A DNA stretch of 64,000 bases from Aliiglaciecola sp. LCG003 (GTDB taxonomy: Bacteria > Pseudomonadota > Gammaproteobacteria > Enterobacterales > Alteromonadaceae). Every line of letters begins with the position of its first letter. The first letter of the stretch is position 1. Location of the stretch: positions 434,001-498,000 of the forward strand of contig NZ_CP128185.1 in the NCBI RefSeq assembly GCF_030316135.1, written 5' to 3'. Below, piece after piece: positions 4,190 to 43,973 of the stretch. The position numbers were made by a program, and so were the translations under genes. The notes under the pieces were generated by a model that saw only the letters and a list, made by a program, of their open reading frames with translations, was not told where the DNA came from and ran no database searches.

Positions 4190-4894
4190 ATGATCGAATA
4201 CGCCAACATATTATTAGTTGAAGATGATGCATCATTGGCCCAATGGGTGCGTGAATATCTTCAAGAACATGGATTTAATGTTGCCCATATTGCCCGCGGC
4301 GATGAAGTCGTTGAACACATCAAACAGCATGAAGCCGATCTTGTGTTACTCGACATTATGTTGCCTGGAATGGACGGAATTGATGTCTGCAAAGCGTTAC
4401 GAAAAATATCAAATGTACCTATCATCATGATGACCGCACGAGCCGATGAATTCGATGAAGTGGTTGGTTTAGAAGTTGGTGCCAACGACTATGTGATTAA
4501 ACCGGTCAGGCCCAGAGCTTTACTTGCGCGCATCAAGGCAATTTTGCGGATGCAAGAGACCAATCCGGTGCGCAACCTTAACGAATTAATGTTTGGCAAG
4601 TTACACATCAACGGAGACTCAAAACGGGTTACTTATCAGGGACAAAATATTGAATTATCAACCAGCCTTTTCTCTTTGTTGTGGTTGCTGGCAAGCAATG
4701 CAGGAACAGTCTTGGACCGAGATGCGGTTTTCAAAGCTCTGATTGGCCGGGAGTACGATGGACTTGATCGGCGCATGGATGTACTCGTGTCTAACTTACG
4801 CAAAAAATTCAATGATAATCCTCAGGAGCCTAAAAAATTTAAAACCATATGGGGAAAGGGCTACCTATTTATCGCAGATGCCTGGGATGAATAA
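4190..4894 (+). CDS. OmpR-family response regulator (RstA-like)
   Basis: About 234 aa; a GTG three bases upstream is an alternative start. The receiver domain spans residues 1-120: acidic pair EDD, phosphoacceptor Asp in LVLLDIMLPG, conserved Thr in MTARAD, Lys in YVIKPVRP. The DNA-binding winged helix spans residues 135-230 and ends TIWGKGYLF, the standard OmpR C-terminus. The VIKPVRPRALLARI linker resembles RstA rather than PhoB. The cognate kinase begins 30 bp downstream, and the MipA and DUF3019 genes lie just upstream, so these are the likely targets. Confidence 0.9.
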   Translation: MIEYANILLVEDDASLAQWVREYLQEHGFNVAHIARGDEVVEHIKQHEADLVLLDIMLPGMDGIDVCKALRKISNVPIIMMTARADEFDEVVGLEVGANDYVIKPVRPRALLARIKAILRMQETNPVRNLNELMFGKLHINGDSKRVTYQGQNIELSTSLFSLLWLLASNAGTVLDRDAVFKALIGREYDGLDRRMDVLVSNLRKKFNDNPQEPKKFKTIWGKGYLFIADAWDE

Positions 4895-25822: not shown

Positions 25823-26245
25823 GTGATTAGATTAGAGCATTTTAATTTGGCCGTGAAAGATATTAAAACAAGCCTGAGGTTCTATCAGGCAGCTTTTCCT
25901 CACTGAACTGTGAGGCAGCGAGGTACAGCGTCTTGGTGTGGTATCTCAAGGGCTTGAATTCATTTGAGAGATGACTTCAACTTCTTGAACTTGAATGGTC
26001 AAGGCAGGGGACATAATCGCGAGTTAAGTAGCAATCAAATCGGTTTGGCACATTTTGCTTTCGAAGTTAAGGATTTAGCGGCTACGGTGGCGCGTTTAAA
26101 AAATGCGGGGGTTGCACCTCATCACGACGGGGCCAAAAAATAACACCGCCACAATTTTTATTATCGGGATCCAGATGAGTTTGAGGTTGAATTCGTAGAA
26201 TATACTTCTGATTTACCTAGCCAACGTAATAACGCCGACGACTAA
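25823..26245 (+). pseudogene. VOC (glyoxalase/bleomycin-resistance) family pseudogene
   Basis: The GTG at 25823 opens VIRLEHFNLAVKDIKTSLRF and continues to a stop after about 27 codons. In a different frame, from about 26000, the C-terminal half reads IGLAHFAFEVKDLAATVARL and, after an in-frame TAA, FYYRDPDEFEVEFVEY. These are the two halves of a VOC metalloenzyme. At least one frameshift and one stop separate them. It sits downstream of a SoxR-type promoter, so it was probably part of a SoxR-dependent unit. Confidence 0.8.
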
Positions 26246-26252
26246 ATCTCCT

Positions 26253-26320
26253 CGTTACTTGGACAGGCAGGCGTTAACTTGGACAGGCATCATAAACACT
26301 CGTTACTTGGACAGGCATCT
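26253..26320 (-). repeat. cluster of three inverted-orientation TGCCTGTCCAA repeats
   Basis: Three copies of TTGGACAGGCA (26259-26269, 26279-26290, 26307-26318), the minus-strand form of the dispersed core TGCCTGTCCAA. They lie between the VOC pseudogene and the transposase gene. Flanks repeat too (CGTTACTTGGACAGGCA twice). Confidence 0.85.
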
Positions 26321-26542
26321 TTAGATTGGCTGTAATAAAAGAGTCAAAAATAGCTGTCAATGCATATGTTTATTAAGTGCTAAGGGAAATTAAGACTAAG
26401 ACCTAGGATTTACATGTTGTTGAAAATAGATTTATGTGTTCAGGAATGTTCATCGTATTTGTCGATTGATTAAATCGATTAATGTTGCTCATTTAAATTT
26501 CAAATATCAATTATTATCTACGCCTACAAACAAGGAGAAACT

Positions 26543-26668
26543 ATGCAGATTTTAAAAAACTTACTAACAATTGTTCGTCAACACAAATATTGTCAAAATT
26601 TACATGAGTGTAACTACATGAATGACTATTATGGGGATCAGATTTGTCAAGTATCTCGAAGGTGCTGA
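26543..26668 (+). CDS. possible small protein, 41 aa
   Basis: ATG at 26543 is preceded by a strong AAGGAG at ideal spacing. It encodes 41 residues with five cysteines, the first in HKYCQNLHEC and the last at the C-terminus (CQVSRRC). A 10-bp inverted repeat follows at 26678. The region is otherwise degenerate (the transposase neighbourhood), so it may be a chance ORF or a remnant. No family is recognised. Confidence 0.3.
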   Translation: MQILKNLLTIVRQHKYCQNLHECNYMNDYYGDQICQVSRRC

Positions 26669-26677
26669 CCGTTAGGG

Positions 26678-26709
26678 TTGGCATAAGGATATAGTTAAGC
26701 TTATGCCAA
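26678..26709. other. 10-bp inverted repeat
   Basis: TTGGCATAAG (26678-26687) and CTTATGCCAA (26700-26709) with a 12-nt loop; no T-run follows. It is 10 bp after the small ORF and about 100 bp from the transposase 3' end; it could be a transcript-end hairpin or part of the mobile element. Confidence 0.4.
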
Positions 26710-26809
26710 TACCTAGATTTTAAATCAACAACTACATATTATAATAAGATAAAAGCATTCACACAGTTGCGGCATAGTTAGGATTCTAATTTTTTTAAAC
26801 CTATTTTTA

Positions 26810-27781
26810 TTAACCAAAATTGAATTTTGGTTGCCAGATTCGCTGTCGTTCTGTGTTGATTTTAAATTTTGATAGTGCCTTTTTGTGACCACCGGCTACA
26901 TATACATTTATTTCAAACTGGCAACTTAGGGATAGCCATGCGTCTTTATCTACTCCCCATTCCCTAAGGATGGAATTTTCATATACTTGAAATTTATCAC
27001 CTTGCTTCTGACTTATATATCGCGCAGTCATTTTGGCAAGCTCTATATAATCTAAAAGCTCTATATTGGGTACATGCGATTGGCTTGAATTTGATGTGTT
27101 ACGAAAAGGCAATAACGATTTGGGTTGTTCATTATAGTTCAAAGAACTAATTCTTTGTTTAATACTAGTATGATCAGATGTTTCTAAGGTGTTGGCAATT
27201 TTTGCTCTAATCGGGTTTAGGTCTACATATACCATGCAAGCAGTCAAGGCACGTTCATCTAGCAGTGCTTGAGATTTAAAACGACCCTCCCAAAAATGGC
27301 CAGTACACTCGTCTTCTAAATTTGCTCGTCTAGCAATAGGTTCGTTTAGTTCTTTCATAAACCAACTTATATCAAAAAGACGTTTCCGGTAGATATTTAT
27401 CGTAGATGCAAGTGAACGTTGTTCGATTTCCGTCAATTGAAGAGAGGTTTCCCAAATCGCCCGTTGGCATAGCAAGGTTCCTTTGTGAAGTTTAAGCCAA
27501 CGTATTGCAACCTCTTCATCTGTCCAATTCGTTGCTTTCTCAAGATCCACCCTAAGCACAACATGAGTATGGTTATGCATGATGGCATAAGCACAAACAT
27601 CAATTGAAAAAATGTCAGCTAGTAGCAATAGGCGATCCTCAACCCACTGCCTTCGATGATCAAATGATTTTCCACTAAGTTTGTCTTCTCCGCACAAAAA
27701 TGCGCGTCTTACACATCTTGATACACAGTGGTAATAGGGTGTGTCAGCTAAGCTTATCTGTCGTTTTCTGGCGATGGGCAT
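26810..27781 (-). CDS. Y1/HUH transposase, REP-associated (RAYT-like)
   Basis: 323 aa from the ATG at 27781 (MPIARKRQISLADTPYYHCV); an earlier in-frame start at 27886 adds an unconserved leader. The IS200-like Y1 fold shows the early YYHCVSRCVRR strand, the metal-binding HUH pair in AIMHNHTHVVLRV (H71, H73) and YVDLNPIRAK near 195. This length and motif set is that of single-copy REP-associated tyrosine transposases rather than IS200 (about 150 aa). Copies of a short repeat flank the gene in inverted orientation: three on the 3' side and one on the 5' side. This is how RAYT genes are normally arranged. Confidence 0.85.
   Translation of the reverse strand: MPIARKRQISLADTPYYHCVSRCVRRAFLCGEDKLSGKSFDHRRQWVEDRLLLLADIFSIDVCAYAIMHNHTHVVLRVDLEKATNWTDEEVAIRWLKLHKGTLLCQRAIWETSLQLTEIEQRSLASTINIYRKRLFDISWFMKELNEPIARRANLEDECTGHFWEGRFKSQALLDERALTACMVYVDLNPIRAKIANTLETSDHTSIKQRISSLNYNEQPKSLLPFRNTSNSSQSHVPNIELLDYIELAKMTARYISQKQGDKFQVYENSILREWGVDKDAWLSLSCQFEINVYVAGGHKKALSKFKINTERQRIWQPKFNFG
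26812..26832. other. perfect palindrome overlapping the transposase stop codon
   Basis: AACCAAAATT-G-AATTTTGGTT covers the last codons and the stop of the transposase gene. No T-run follows on the minus strand, so it is not a textbook terminator. IS200/IS605-type enzymes recognise subterminal hairpins, so this could be part of an element end (inference). Confidence 0.5.
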
Positions 27782-28114
27782 TGATTGTTCTTTAATATTG
27801 ACGTTATTACATATTAGCCGCTTATAAAAATTTAAGGGTCTAGTTTTAAAGTTCGCATGTCTGCCCGAAAAGATAGCTAAAGACAACTAGAAAGCATTTG
27901 TGTCTGTCCAAATAGTAATCCCAACTTTAAATAGGAAGCTAGTATTTTGAATTACAAAATTTTTTATTTAATTTGAAATTATATACATTTGTGTTTTTTA
28001 ATTATAATTTTTTTATAATTATTACAGTATCTTGCACTATTTATTTATAAAATGACTTTATTTATTTTTATTTTGGTGTGCAAGTGTGCTCTGAAATTTC
28101 AGTTGGTTGAGTAT
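27782..28114. other. AT-rich gap upstream of the transposase
   Basis: No gene is supported here. It contains one repeat copy at 27901 and then about 150 bp of very A/T-rich sequence that may hold promoters for the divergent transposase and oxidoreductase genes. Confidence 0.5.
27901..27915 (+). repeat. single TGTCTGTCCAAATAG repeat copy upstream of the transposase
   Basis: TGTCTGTCCAAATAG differs from the dispersed TGCCTGTCCAAATAG unit by one base. It is in the opposite orientation to the three copies at 26253-26320, so the transposase is bracketed by inverted copies about 1.6 kb apart. Confidence 0.75.
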
Positions 28115-28669: not shown

Positions 28670-28725
28670 TATTGTTTTCCAATCTTCGTCCATAGATCTT
28701 TAGAAAGAAGAACGAGCTAGAGTTA

Positions 28726-28800
28726 TGCCTGTCCAAATTTGCGACCTCAGTATGATGCCTGTCCAAATTTGATATGATGCCTGATATGATACCTGTCCTT
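28726..28800 (+). repeat. TGCCTGTCCAAA repeat cluster
   Basis: Exact copies of TGCCTGTCCAAA at 28726-28737 and 28756-28767 (30 bp apart), both followed by TTTG, and a partial copy (ACCTGTCC) near 28791. They fill the gap between the truncated oxidoreductase and the convergent VOC gene. Confidence 0.8.
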
Positions 28801-28811
28801 GCTATAGAAGA

Positions 28812-29201
28812 CTACGCCTCATACACTTCTAAGGGGAGCCCATCAGGATCCGTAAAAAAGTTAAATGCCTTGCCAGTATATGCATCTATCCTAATCTTTT
28901 CGGTTGGCACTCCTTCTTGTTCTAGGAACTTACAGAAATCTTCCACCGACTCAACTTTAAACGCCAAATGACGCAGACCTCTAGCCTCTGGATTAGAAGG
29001 TCTCGGCGGAGGCGAAGGAAAAGAAAAAAGTTCAATTTGACTACCATCTGAAAGAGCCAAATCTAGCTTGTAAGACTCTCGCTCTTCTCGGTAGTGTTCT
29101 GCAAGCACTGAAAAACCCAGAATATCAACATAGAATGTTTTTGAACGCAGGTAATCTGAACAAATTATTGCCACATGATGAAAACCTTTAAGTTGGGACA
29201 T
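28812..29201 (-). CDS. VOC family protein (GloA2/YaeR-like)
   Basis: 129 aa, one vicinal-oxygen-chelate module pair. Metal ligand His is in GFHHVAIICSD. The central block LRHLAFKVESVEDFCKFL and Glu in DPDGLPLEVYEA complete the site. The pattern is that of the YaeR/GloA2 subgroup, whose substrate is uncertain, rather than glyoxalase I itself. The start has AAGGAG upstream. Its 3' end faces the repeat cluster. Confidence 0.85.
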   Translation of the reverse strand: MSQLKGFHHVAIICSDYLRSKTFYVDILGFSVLAEHYREERESYKLDLALSDGSQIELFSFPSPPPRPSNPEARGLRHLAFKVESVEDFCKFLEQEGVPTEKIRIDAYTGKAFNFFTDPDGLPLEVYEA

Positions 29202-32332: not shown

Positions 32333-32480
32333 TTTGATTCTTATTGAACAGCAAGATAATTTATTCTAGTGATTTTCAAAAAAGAATACAGTGAATACGT
32401 ATGCTAAAGGATTAATTAGTATTTGGAGCACGTATGTGAATTGATCGTAAGTGGCATGTACTTGTATGAGTATAAGAACA

Positions 32481-32680
32481 TACCTGTTCAAATTAACCAG
32501 GGTAAAAACATGCCTGTCCAAATTAGCCAGCGTAAAGGGGAGTGGATAACCTGAATGCAACATGAAAAAAGTGGATGTCCAAATAGGGGGAAAAGTTGGG
32601 TGTCCAATTAAACAGGTAAATGTGCCTGTCCAAATAAGGAGGTGCCTGTCCAAATAAGGAGGTGCCTGTCCAAATAAGGA
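32481..32680 (+). repeat. repeat cluster including a 20-bp tandem array
   Basis: Degenerate copies at 32481 (TACCTGTTCAAATTA), 32511 (TGCCTGTCCAAATTA) and 32573 (GGATGTCCAAATAG) lead into a tandem array. GTGCCTGTCCAAATAAGGA recurs at exact 20-bp period, with cores at 32623-32634, 32643-32654 and 32663-32674. It occupies the gap between the aldo/keto reductase start and cydB stop. Confidence 0.9.
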
Positions 32681-32703
32681 GGTGCGCCGATTATATTGAA
32701 AGC

Positions 32704-43751: not shown

Positions 43752-43973
43752 CACAGTCAAGAAAGCGCGGGTGAAGGATTTTGACTGTCCAAATAGTGCT
43801 AAATACACAGTCAATAATCACAATAATCATGCCTGTCCAAATAGTGGCACAATAATCATGCCTGTCCAAATAGTGGCACAGTCAAGAAAGCGCGGGTGAA
43901 GGATTTTGACTGTCCAAATAGTGCTAAATACACAGTCAATAATCACAATAATCATGCCTGTCCAAATAGTGGG
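43752..43973 (+). repeat. nested direct repeats built on the TGCCTGTCCAAA core
   Basis: A 96-bp block (43752-43847) is duplicated exactly at 43877-43972 with a 125-bp period. A 29-bp unit ending in TGCCTGTCCAAATAGTGG is tandemly repeated inside (43819-43876). There are five cores: TGACTGTCCAAA at 43782 and 43907, TGCCTGTCCAAA at 43830, 43859 and 43955. It lies between the convergent dbpA and M13 peptidase genes. Confidence 0.93.

Follow-up and report, generated by a model that had tools for sequence, protein, structure and literature searches.

The window analyzed here, 64,000 nucleotides comprising bases 434001–498000 of the 4.41 Mb single-contig genome of Aliiglaciecola sp. LCG003 (the whole genome is labeled G000), contains a single, diverged member of an HUH/Y1 transposon family that is present in many copies. 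The element encodes a single transposase that appears to belong to TnpAY1 subclass 2.3, and it is probable that this enzyme acts at a short linear core, facing outwards at both ends of the element, that iterates itself there. The element family and its ends are well supported. An earlier note on this DNA had described the gene as a single-copy RAYT (REP-associated tyrosine transposase, where REP denotes repetitive extragenic palindrome) accompanied by a separate REP-like repeat population; the gene is instead part of a mobile family with 17 loci in the genome, and the repeat is the transposon's own terminal core.

Several patterns emerge from comparison of the copies. First, a search of the genome with the transposase gave 19 matches, corresponding to 17 loci and one small fragment (at 3495297, locus L149, which was left out of the end analysis), and 16 of the 17 loci align over more than 300 residues; at L147 (G000:C1:2684349-2687900) the transposase copy is interrupted by ~2.6 kb of other DNA. 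Near-identical copies are present at unrelated loci, including L137 and L138 (99.6% identity over 1268 bp), L133 and L134 (98.0% over 1321 bp), and L135 and L136 (98.1% over 1182 bp), and L141–L144 are 92.6–96.4% identical among themselves over 1247–1390 bp. The identity between copies stops at or near the cores, and the element consists of one transposase gene within about 1.2–1.7 kb. A classic RAYT, a single-copy domesticated enzyme that maintains dispersed palindromes, would share the protein fold, the similarity to REP_Tyr_transpos, and the position of repeats adjoining the gene, but is contradicted by the 17 loci with near-identical copies, by the absence of a hairpin, and by the location of the repeat at the ends of a mobile unit; we consider this explanation very improbable.

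Secondly, there are both filled and empty sites. At L138 the flanking blocks are 1634 bp apart in G000 compared to 30–105 bp in five of six congeners (G001, G003, G006, G007 and G008), an insertion polymorphism between related genomes of the kind that the earlier note had proposed to look for; the sixth congener, G004, has ~2.6 kb of other DNA at this site, and the flanks are ~9 kb apart in G002. Likewise, in a Pseudoalteromonas pair the site is filled with 1570 bp in one genome and spans 126 bp in strain CF6-2. Transposase matches are present in 36 of 60 related genomes (in six of these genomes only weak ones, with a best E value of 6e-14 or worse), and the named relatives are mainly from Alteromonas, Pseudoalteromonas, Marinomonas and Aliiglaciecola. 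A second set of apparent empty sites, at seven G006 loci that have no orthologue in the set of G008 loci retrieved, was rejected. Twelve of the 14 G006 flanks sought in G008 were found (both L192 flanks were not), and because the flanks of each site's pair lie on different contigs, with seven of the 12 within 1.5 kb of a contig end, these are assembly breaks. Comparison of L222 with L226, which are 98–99% identical up to the left end, gave no orthologous right flank. We note that at L225 a stretch of 58–61 bp by alignment, perhaps 100 by eye, is present on both sides of the element (2740-2796 and 4231-4291) and once in the element-free relative L228 (2224-2283); this could be a long target duplication or a dispersed repeat.

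Thirdly, the ends are shared across the family. We used 97 oriented loci (80 of the 129 named relatives plus the 17 in G000), 90 of which have enough flanking sequence. With no prior motif, the most strand-biased 8-mer located 3′ of the gene is TGCCTGTC, which is present in 45 loci versus eight on the opposite strand, and is found inverted upstream of the gene in 33 loci. The pattern [AG]TG..TGTC occurs at the right end, downstream of the gene, in 73 of the 90 loci (16 on the wrong strand), and inverted at the left end, upstream, in 76 (six on the wrong strand), compared to 13/80 and 7/80 in stretches 1.5–2 kb away. When the loci are grouped into 71 sequence clusters, the motif is present at the right end of 55, the left end of 60, and both ends of 49; individually, 64 of the 90 loci have the inverted core at both ends. 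It is mostly positioned 170–240 bp past the stop codon and 40–130 bp before the aligned start, and the base frequencies give the consensus RTGN[CG]TGTC[CT]NNNTWR, outward-facing at both ends. A single offset accounts for the TWR triplet in 28 of 55 right ends and 31 of 60 left ends, with nine other offsets giving at most 15.

The left and right cores of an element also covary. In 49 clusters, 142 of 196 variable core positions carry the same base at the two ends, compared to 92.8 when shuffled, and none of 10000 shuffles was as high; the shuffle leaves relatedness in, and part of this agreement may reflect phylogeny. The family-wide terminal position and the covariation support the earlier proposal that the repeat belongs to the transposase. 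Conversely, repeats that are unrelated to the transposase, such as regulator binding sites or transcription signals nearby, could account for the intergenic position of the core and for the location of some clusters between convergent genes, but are contradicted by the enrichment at both ends across 71 sequence clusters from many genera, by the covariation, and by the lack of a core excess in genomes without a transposase match; this explanation is extremely improbable. The earlier note had also remarked that the repeat unit is not a clear hairpin, and the 75-nt ends indeed show no excess of hairpin folding, with mean z values of −0.49 for 55 right ends and −0.34 for 60 left ends versus −0.34 for 64 controls. 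Because the ends lack a hairpin, the family is set apart from both the IS200/IS605 elements and the REPs as PMC6006769 and PMC8266576 describe them.

Within the window, the 12-mer TGCCTGTCCAAA has 25 matches with two or fewer mismatches, compared to a mean of 6.59 and a maximum of 15 in 100 dinucleotide shuffles. Seventeen of these are in five clusters, at 26258, 26278 and 26306 on the reverse strand, and on the forward strand at 27901, at 28726 and 28756, at 32481–32674 (six matches), and at 43782–43966 (five matches); the 15 that have zero or one mismatch agree with the earlier count of about 15 copies in five clusters outside intact genes. The remaining eight have two mismatches each and are scattered, at about chance level. 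All of the clusters are outside intact genes, and two adjoin damaged genes. The arrays share just the ~13 bp core, without common flanks, and each has a single orientation. The H71-x-H73 gene is bracketed by oppositely oriented cores as first described, with a forward core at 27901 and reverse cores at 26258–26317. There are 11 exact copies of TGCCTGTCCAAA in the genome (nine in the window and two at 402 kb; none for the reversed control), all of them within the 76 kb at 402–478 kb around the window gene, and every core cluster in the window and at 402 kb is directed away from that gene, as would be expected of nested alternative ends. The exact 12-mer is only a local variant, whereas the shorter TGCCTGTCCA has 81 genome copies versus none for the reversed control, and the wider consensus has 183 sites versus 42. 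We infer that TGCCTGTCCAAA, the CCAAA variant, is a private core of the window element that has spread over 76 kb around it.

The transposase itself is conserved in the residues expected of its class. The open frame of the window gene extends beyond the ATG to a TTG at 27886, corresponding to 358 amino acids. In an alignment of 35 sequences (the window protein and 34 relatives), residues N70, H71, H73, W164, E165, Y185, V186, L188, N189 and P190 are invariant and D187 is nearly so; the middle residue of the HUH motif is variable, being T in the window protein and Y, L, I, N, F, C, V or S elsewhere. The distance from H73 to Y185 is 112 residues. The matches to Pfam Y1_Tnp and NCBIfam REP_Tyr_transpos are both below cut-off, there is no match in PHROGs or PADLOC, and none by sequence in the PDB. 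An AlphaFold model built from 33 sequences has a mean pLDDT (predicted local distance difference test score) of 87.7, and its best PDB match is 4ER8, the Escherichia coli REP transposase (Z 11.7, 3.0 Å over 159 residues; Foldseek E value 5e-3), followed by matches at Z 6.1. The window protein is thus, as judged from this model, an HUH/Y1 protein of the RAYT fold. As read from our alignment and the model, extra helices are predicted to separate the HuH half from the Y half, with further ones following the Y helix; these fit the insertion and C-terminal extension described for subclass 2.3.

The subclass was assigned by comparison with the printed table of Quentin et al. 2018 (PMC6006769). Subclass 2.3 is described there as multicopy and present in Alteromonadales and Chromatiales, with a median length of 325 amino acids, a C-terminal extension, an insertion between HuH and Y (median distance 110), and the motifs NHYH, WE and YVDLNP; the paper found moderate identity between copies and no associated REP. 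Because the length, motifs and HuH–Y distance match those printed (323 amino acids, W-E and YVDLNP, and a distance of 112), the window transposase appears to fit subclass 2.3, and it is similarly from the Alteromonadales, multicopy, and without a hairpin REP. In contrast to the subclass as published, a linear core is present at both ends, and the bounds of a mobile unit of about 1.2–1.3 kb are set by copies with identity as high as 99.6%.

Y1 transposases located between terminal inverted repeats (TIRs) are already known. In the TIRtrons described by Di Nocera and colleagues (2013, PMC3733652), TIRYT genes are flanked by TIRs that are unrelated to GTAG REPs, some of which form small dispersed families; the motif reported as shared is GGGGWSAS, and the genes fall into subclasses 2.1, 2.2 and 2.5 according to PMC6006769. 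The family described here resembles these in having terminal inverted repeats around the gene (in 64/90 loci and 49/71 clusters), but differs in its motif (RTGN[CG]TGTC[CT]), its subclass, its high copy number and its tandem-iterated ends. No cognate DNA sequence for this subclass was found described in the literature searched, and a search with the letters of the core gave papers that, among those listed, look by title like chance or primer matches. The family shares the HUH/Y1 fold and dispersed intergenic repeats adjoining the gene with the REPtrons and RAYTs (E. coli TnpAREP, 4ER8), but these have low-copy genes and GTRG-footed hairpin REPs, neither of which is seen here. It is multicopy with an HUH/Y1 enzyme like the IS200/IS605 elements (IS608 and ISDra2), but those have hairpin ends with guide sequences and a Y---Q arrangement, whereas the ends here are linear inverted cores and Y---NP is invariant. 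For subclass 2.3, a branch of the RAYT superfamily with many copies per genome, the published survey did not find a DNA substrate; the core is the most likely site of action, and makes the enzyme open to binding, nicking and excision tests. If this is true, the element is a Y1 transposon with linear instead of hairpin ends.

The cores are iterated in tandem and the arrays turn over rapidly. Among 64 neighboring identical-core pairs, 19 are clear tandem units of 16–149 bp (the other 45 were set aside), and 12 of these 19 end 8–14 nt past TGTC on the outer side, with the inner edge at 4 to 139 nt. In five orthologous element-locus pairs compared between G006 and G008 (27 to 184 mismatches in 6.8–6.9 kb aligned), 15 of the 20 indels of at least 5 bp are no more than 50 bp from a core, and positions this close make up 7% of the sequence (p 6e-14 if the indels are independent). 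The strongest rival explanation alters this step only: the transposon and its ends would be as described, but the arrays would be passive products of slippage on short AT-rich tandem repeats with the transposase uninvolved, and the solo arrays would be remains of dead elements. The many unit lengths, the gain and loss of single units, and the presence of arrays far from any transposase are all consistent with this, as is the comparison of unit edges given below. However, it is at the same core that arrays form in unrelated elements, at the left end as well as the right, and a first duplication is required before slippage can act; in addition, apart from the gene itself, no remnant of a transposase was detected in the window by the genome search. 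We regard slippage as possible but not the likelier origin of the arrays.

In the mechanism that we favor, with the transposase acting at the ends, the enzyme would recognize the core without a hairpin and cut a single strand near the TWR triplet, a few bases beyond the core, after which the freed end would be joined to DNA elsewhere. Transposition would result if that DNA were a distant site, tandem arrays if the end were joined back inside the element, and adjacent deletions if it were joined just outside. If an outlying core were used as an end, the element could carry or lose neighboring genes. The arrays change fast and could serve as strain markers, and in marine Gammaproteobacteria also as a natural archive of end-joining events.

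Cores are also found away from the transposase loci, with 59 TGCCTGTCCA sites in 37 such stretches, 29 of which carry the outer T[AT][AG]. Twenty-seven of these 29 consensus sites are outside open reading frames (ORFs) of at least 120 codons, compared to 14 of the other 30 (16 being inside), and on this basis most consensus solo sites are intergenic, and much of the remainder looks like background. The intergenic bias, the rise of core number with transposase number, and a few arrays with both orientations would fit solo cores and arrays that are independent non-autonomous units moved in trans by the transposases, analogous to REPs or REPINs without a hairpin. Yet the window arrays share only the ~13 bp core with differing flanks and a single orientation each, the exact variant of the window does not occur beyond the 76 kb surrounding its gene, and the one multiplied longer unit that was seen travels with ribosomal RNA (rRNA) operon DNA; we consider non-autonomous units unlikely. 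That longer unit, with paired cores ~300 bp apart (L150, L157, L174 and L181, at 38, 912, 2718 and 3812 kb of G000), was considered as a miniature element and rejected, as the duplicated DNA reads by eye as the region after rRNA operons. We also note a satellite-like array of 17 consensus cores at G006:C1:389635-390394, all in one orientation with ~90 bp higher-order spacing, and ~37 kb from the nearest transposase among those listed.

The orientation of solo cores relative to the nearest transposase was compared in two ways. In one, based on the first 100 consensus sites listed for each genome (of 183 in G000 and 169 in G006) and on the transposases listed, 17 of 25 clusters at 0.6–20 kb point outward (eight outward and three inward in G000, nine and five in G006). 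At 20–50 kb the corresponding numbers among the sites listed are 11 and 12 in G000 and five and two in G006, and beyond 50 kb they are 16 and six, and 15 and 14. Within 10 kb, eight of nine clusters among the listed sites are outward, and the next, at 10.06 kb, is inward. The second comparison used all 81 TGCCTGTCCA sites and the 17 loci of G000, and gave nine outward and three inward at 0.6–20 kb (two of the three inward clusters being in rRNA-linked DNA), five and seven at 20–50 kb, and 14 and five beyond 50 kb. Core orientation in G001 and G008 was viewed by eye among the sites listed.

Core number was compared with transposase number in 60 related genomes, with the transposase counts including weak matches and fragments, and sites compared to reversed-control sites. 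The 24 genomes without a transposase match have 345 consensus sites versus 681 for the control, and thus show no excess of the core; the earlier note had named equal presence of the core in genomes lacking the transposase as telling against the link. The 20 genomes with one to four matches have 494 sites versus 728, and the 16 with at least five matches have 1049 versus 608. The Spearman correlation between the site/control ratio and the number of transposase matches is 0.86 for nine congeners, 0.54 for all 60 genomes, and 0.41 for the 51 outside the genus.

Several observations weigh against the view that the transposase acts at, and iterates, this core. The motif is absent from 17 of 90 right flanks and 14 of 90 left flanks, so not every member carries the core; the four Glaciecola cluster representatives L101, L102, L104 and L105 lack it on both sides. 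The core excess is carried by the genus, and outside it the genomes with at least five matches have 344 sites versus 382 for the control; their ratio is higher than that of the genomes without a match (316 versus 640), yet not above their own control. G057, from the same order, has 34 transposase matches but 16 sites versus 22 for the control, and perhaps has a different end sequence; close relatives supplied most of the sequences behind the consensus, so there may be other cores outside the genus. No base-precise insertion site was obtained at L138 (six congeners), L136 (two), L144 (one) or three sites in Pseudoalteromonas plasmids, where the intergenic DNA is too diverged. In the window itself, the transposase carries T at the middle position of the HUH motif, and the right-end core has CCAAG where the solo cores have CCAAA. 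The outer and inner edges of the tandem units share a median of 12 nt, so the contrast between them is weak and fits plain slippage. Finally, some solo arrays are mixed in orientation (G000:C1:1303189-1304501 and G006:C1:1589843-1590421), and the outward bias of solo cores is suggestive only, being weak, not limited to short distances, and chosen after the fact.

Rearrangements of neighboring DNA are seen at several loci. In Pseudoalteromonas L121 a ~90% identical repeat of the element's left 618 bp directly precedes the full copy, and its relative L126 lacks 1.34 kb of flank, a gap that reaches the left end's outer edge. In L084 (Pseudoalteromonas shioyasakiensis) an alpha-L-fucosidase gene (Pfam E value 9.6e-98) is located between two left-end cores upstream of the transposase, at 1441-2793; by alignment this stretch is present in L086 and absent from L087, L089 and L090. 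For L087 the sequence was read across the junction at the core; the difference may be either a gain or a loss. We speculate, tentatively, on a wider form of linear-core HUH/Y1 transposition in which an element duplicates its own ends by nicking and rejoining, and nested cores serve as alternative ends, such that genes are deleted, captured and moved over tens of kb; this is a good deal less secure than action of the transposase at its ends. One-ended or alternative-end mobilization occurs in IS91/ISCR and ISEcp1-like elements, and here too an outlying end-like sequence could carry neighboring genes, but the enzymes of those elements are different, and the possible alternative ends here are copies of the element's own core.

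The features of the window are collected in Table 1.

Table 1. Coordinates of the element, its cores and an adjoining gene in the window.
Feature	Coordinates	Strand	Comment
Y1/HUH transposase gene, 323 aa from ATG at 27781	26813..27781	-	
Left-end core of the element, GTGTCTGTCCAAATAG, outward-pointing	27900..27915	+	
Right-end array of the element, three cores TGCCTGTCCAAG then TAACG or TTAACG, outward-pointing	26247..26320	-	
Solo array, two exact cores and degraded copies, left-end orientation, shortly 3′ of the truncated reductase gene	28725..28800	+	
Solo array, six cores, left-end orientation, intergenic	32479..32682	+	
Solo array between convergent genes, left-end orientation, five cores spaced in tandem at 29 bp and 125 bp	43779..43970	+	
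Truncated FAD/NAD reductase gene, 205 aa	28052..28669	+	Ends close to the 28.73 kb solo array

The arrays of the window resemble the iterated ends seen in other genomes; for example, three of the six cores in the second solo array are in 20-bp tandem units starting at 32622. The best matches of the reductase gene are open frames of 400 amino acids in G005 (50% identity) and 378 amino acids in G036 (32%), and its truncation beside the 28.73 kb array is a candidate adjacent deletion. To the other side of the element, a VOC/glyoxalase-like reading frame at 25826-26244, beside the right-end array, looks broken by eye, and an intact glyoxalase-family gene is located at 28812-29201. Elsewhere in the genome, the left flank of L134 (G000:C1:3331908-3332207) is a 300-bp stretch that is present at 15 places and is apparently another insertion sequence.

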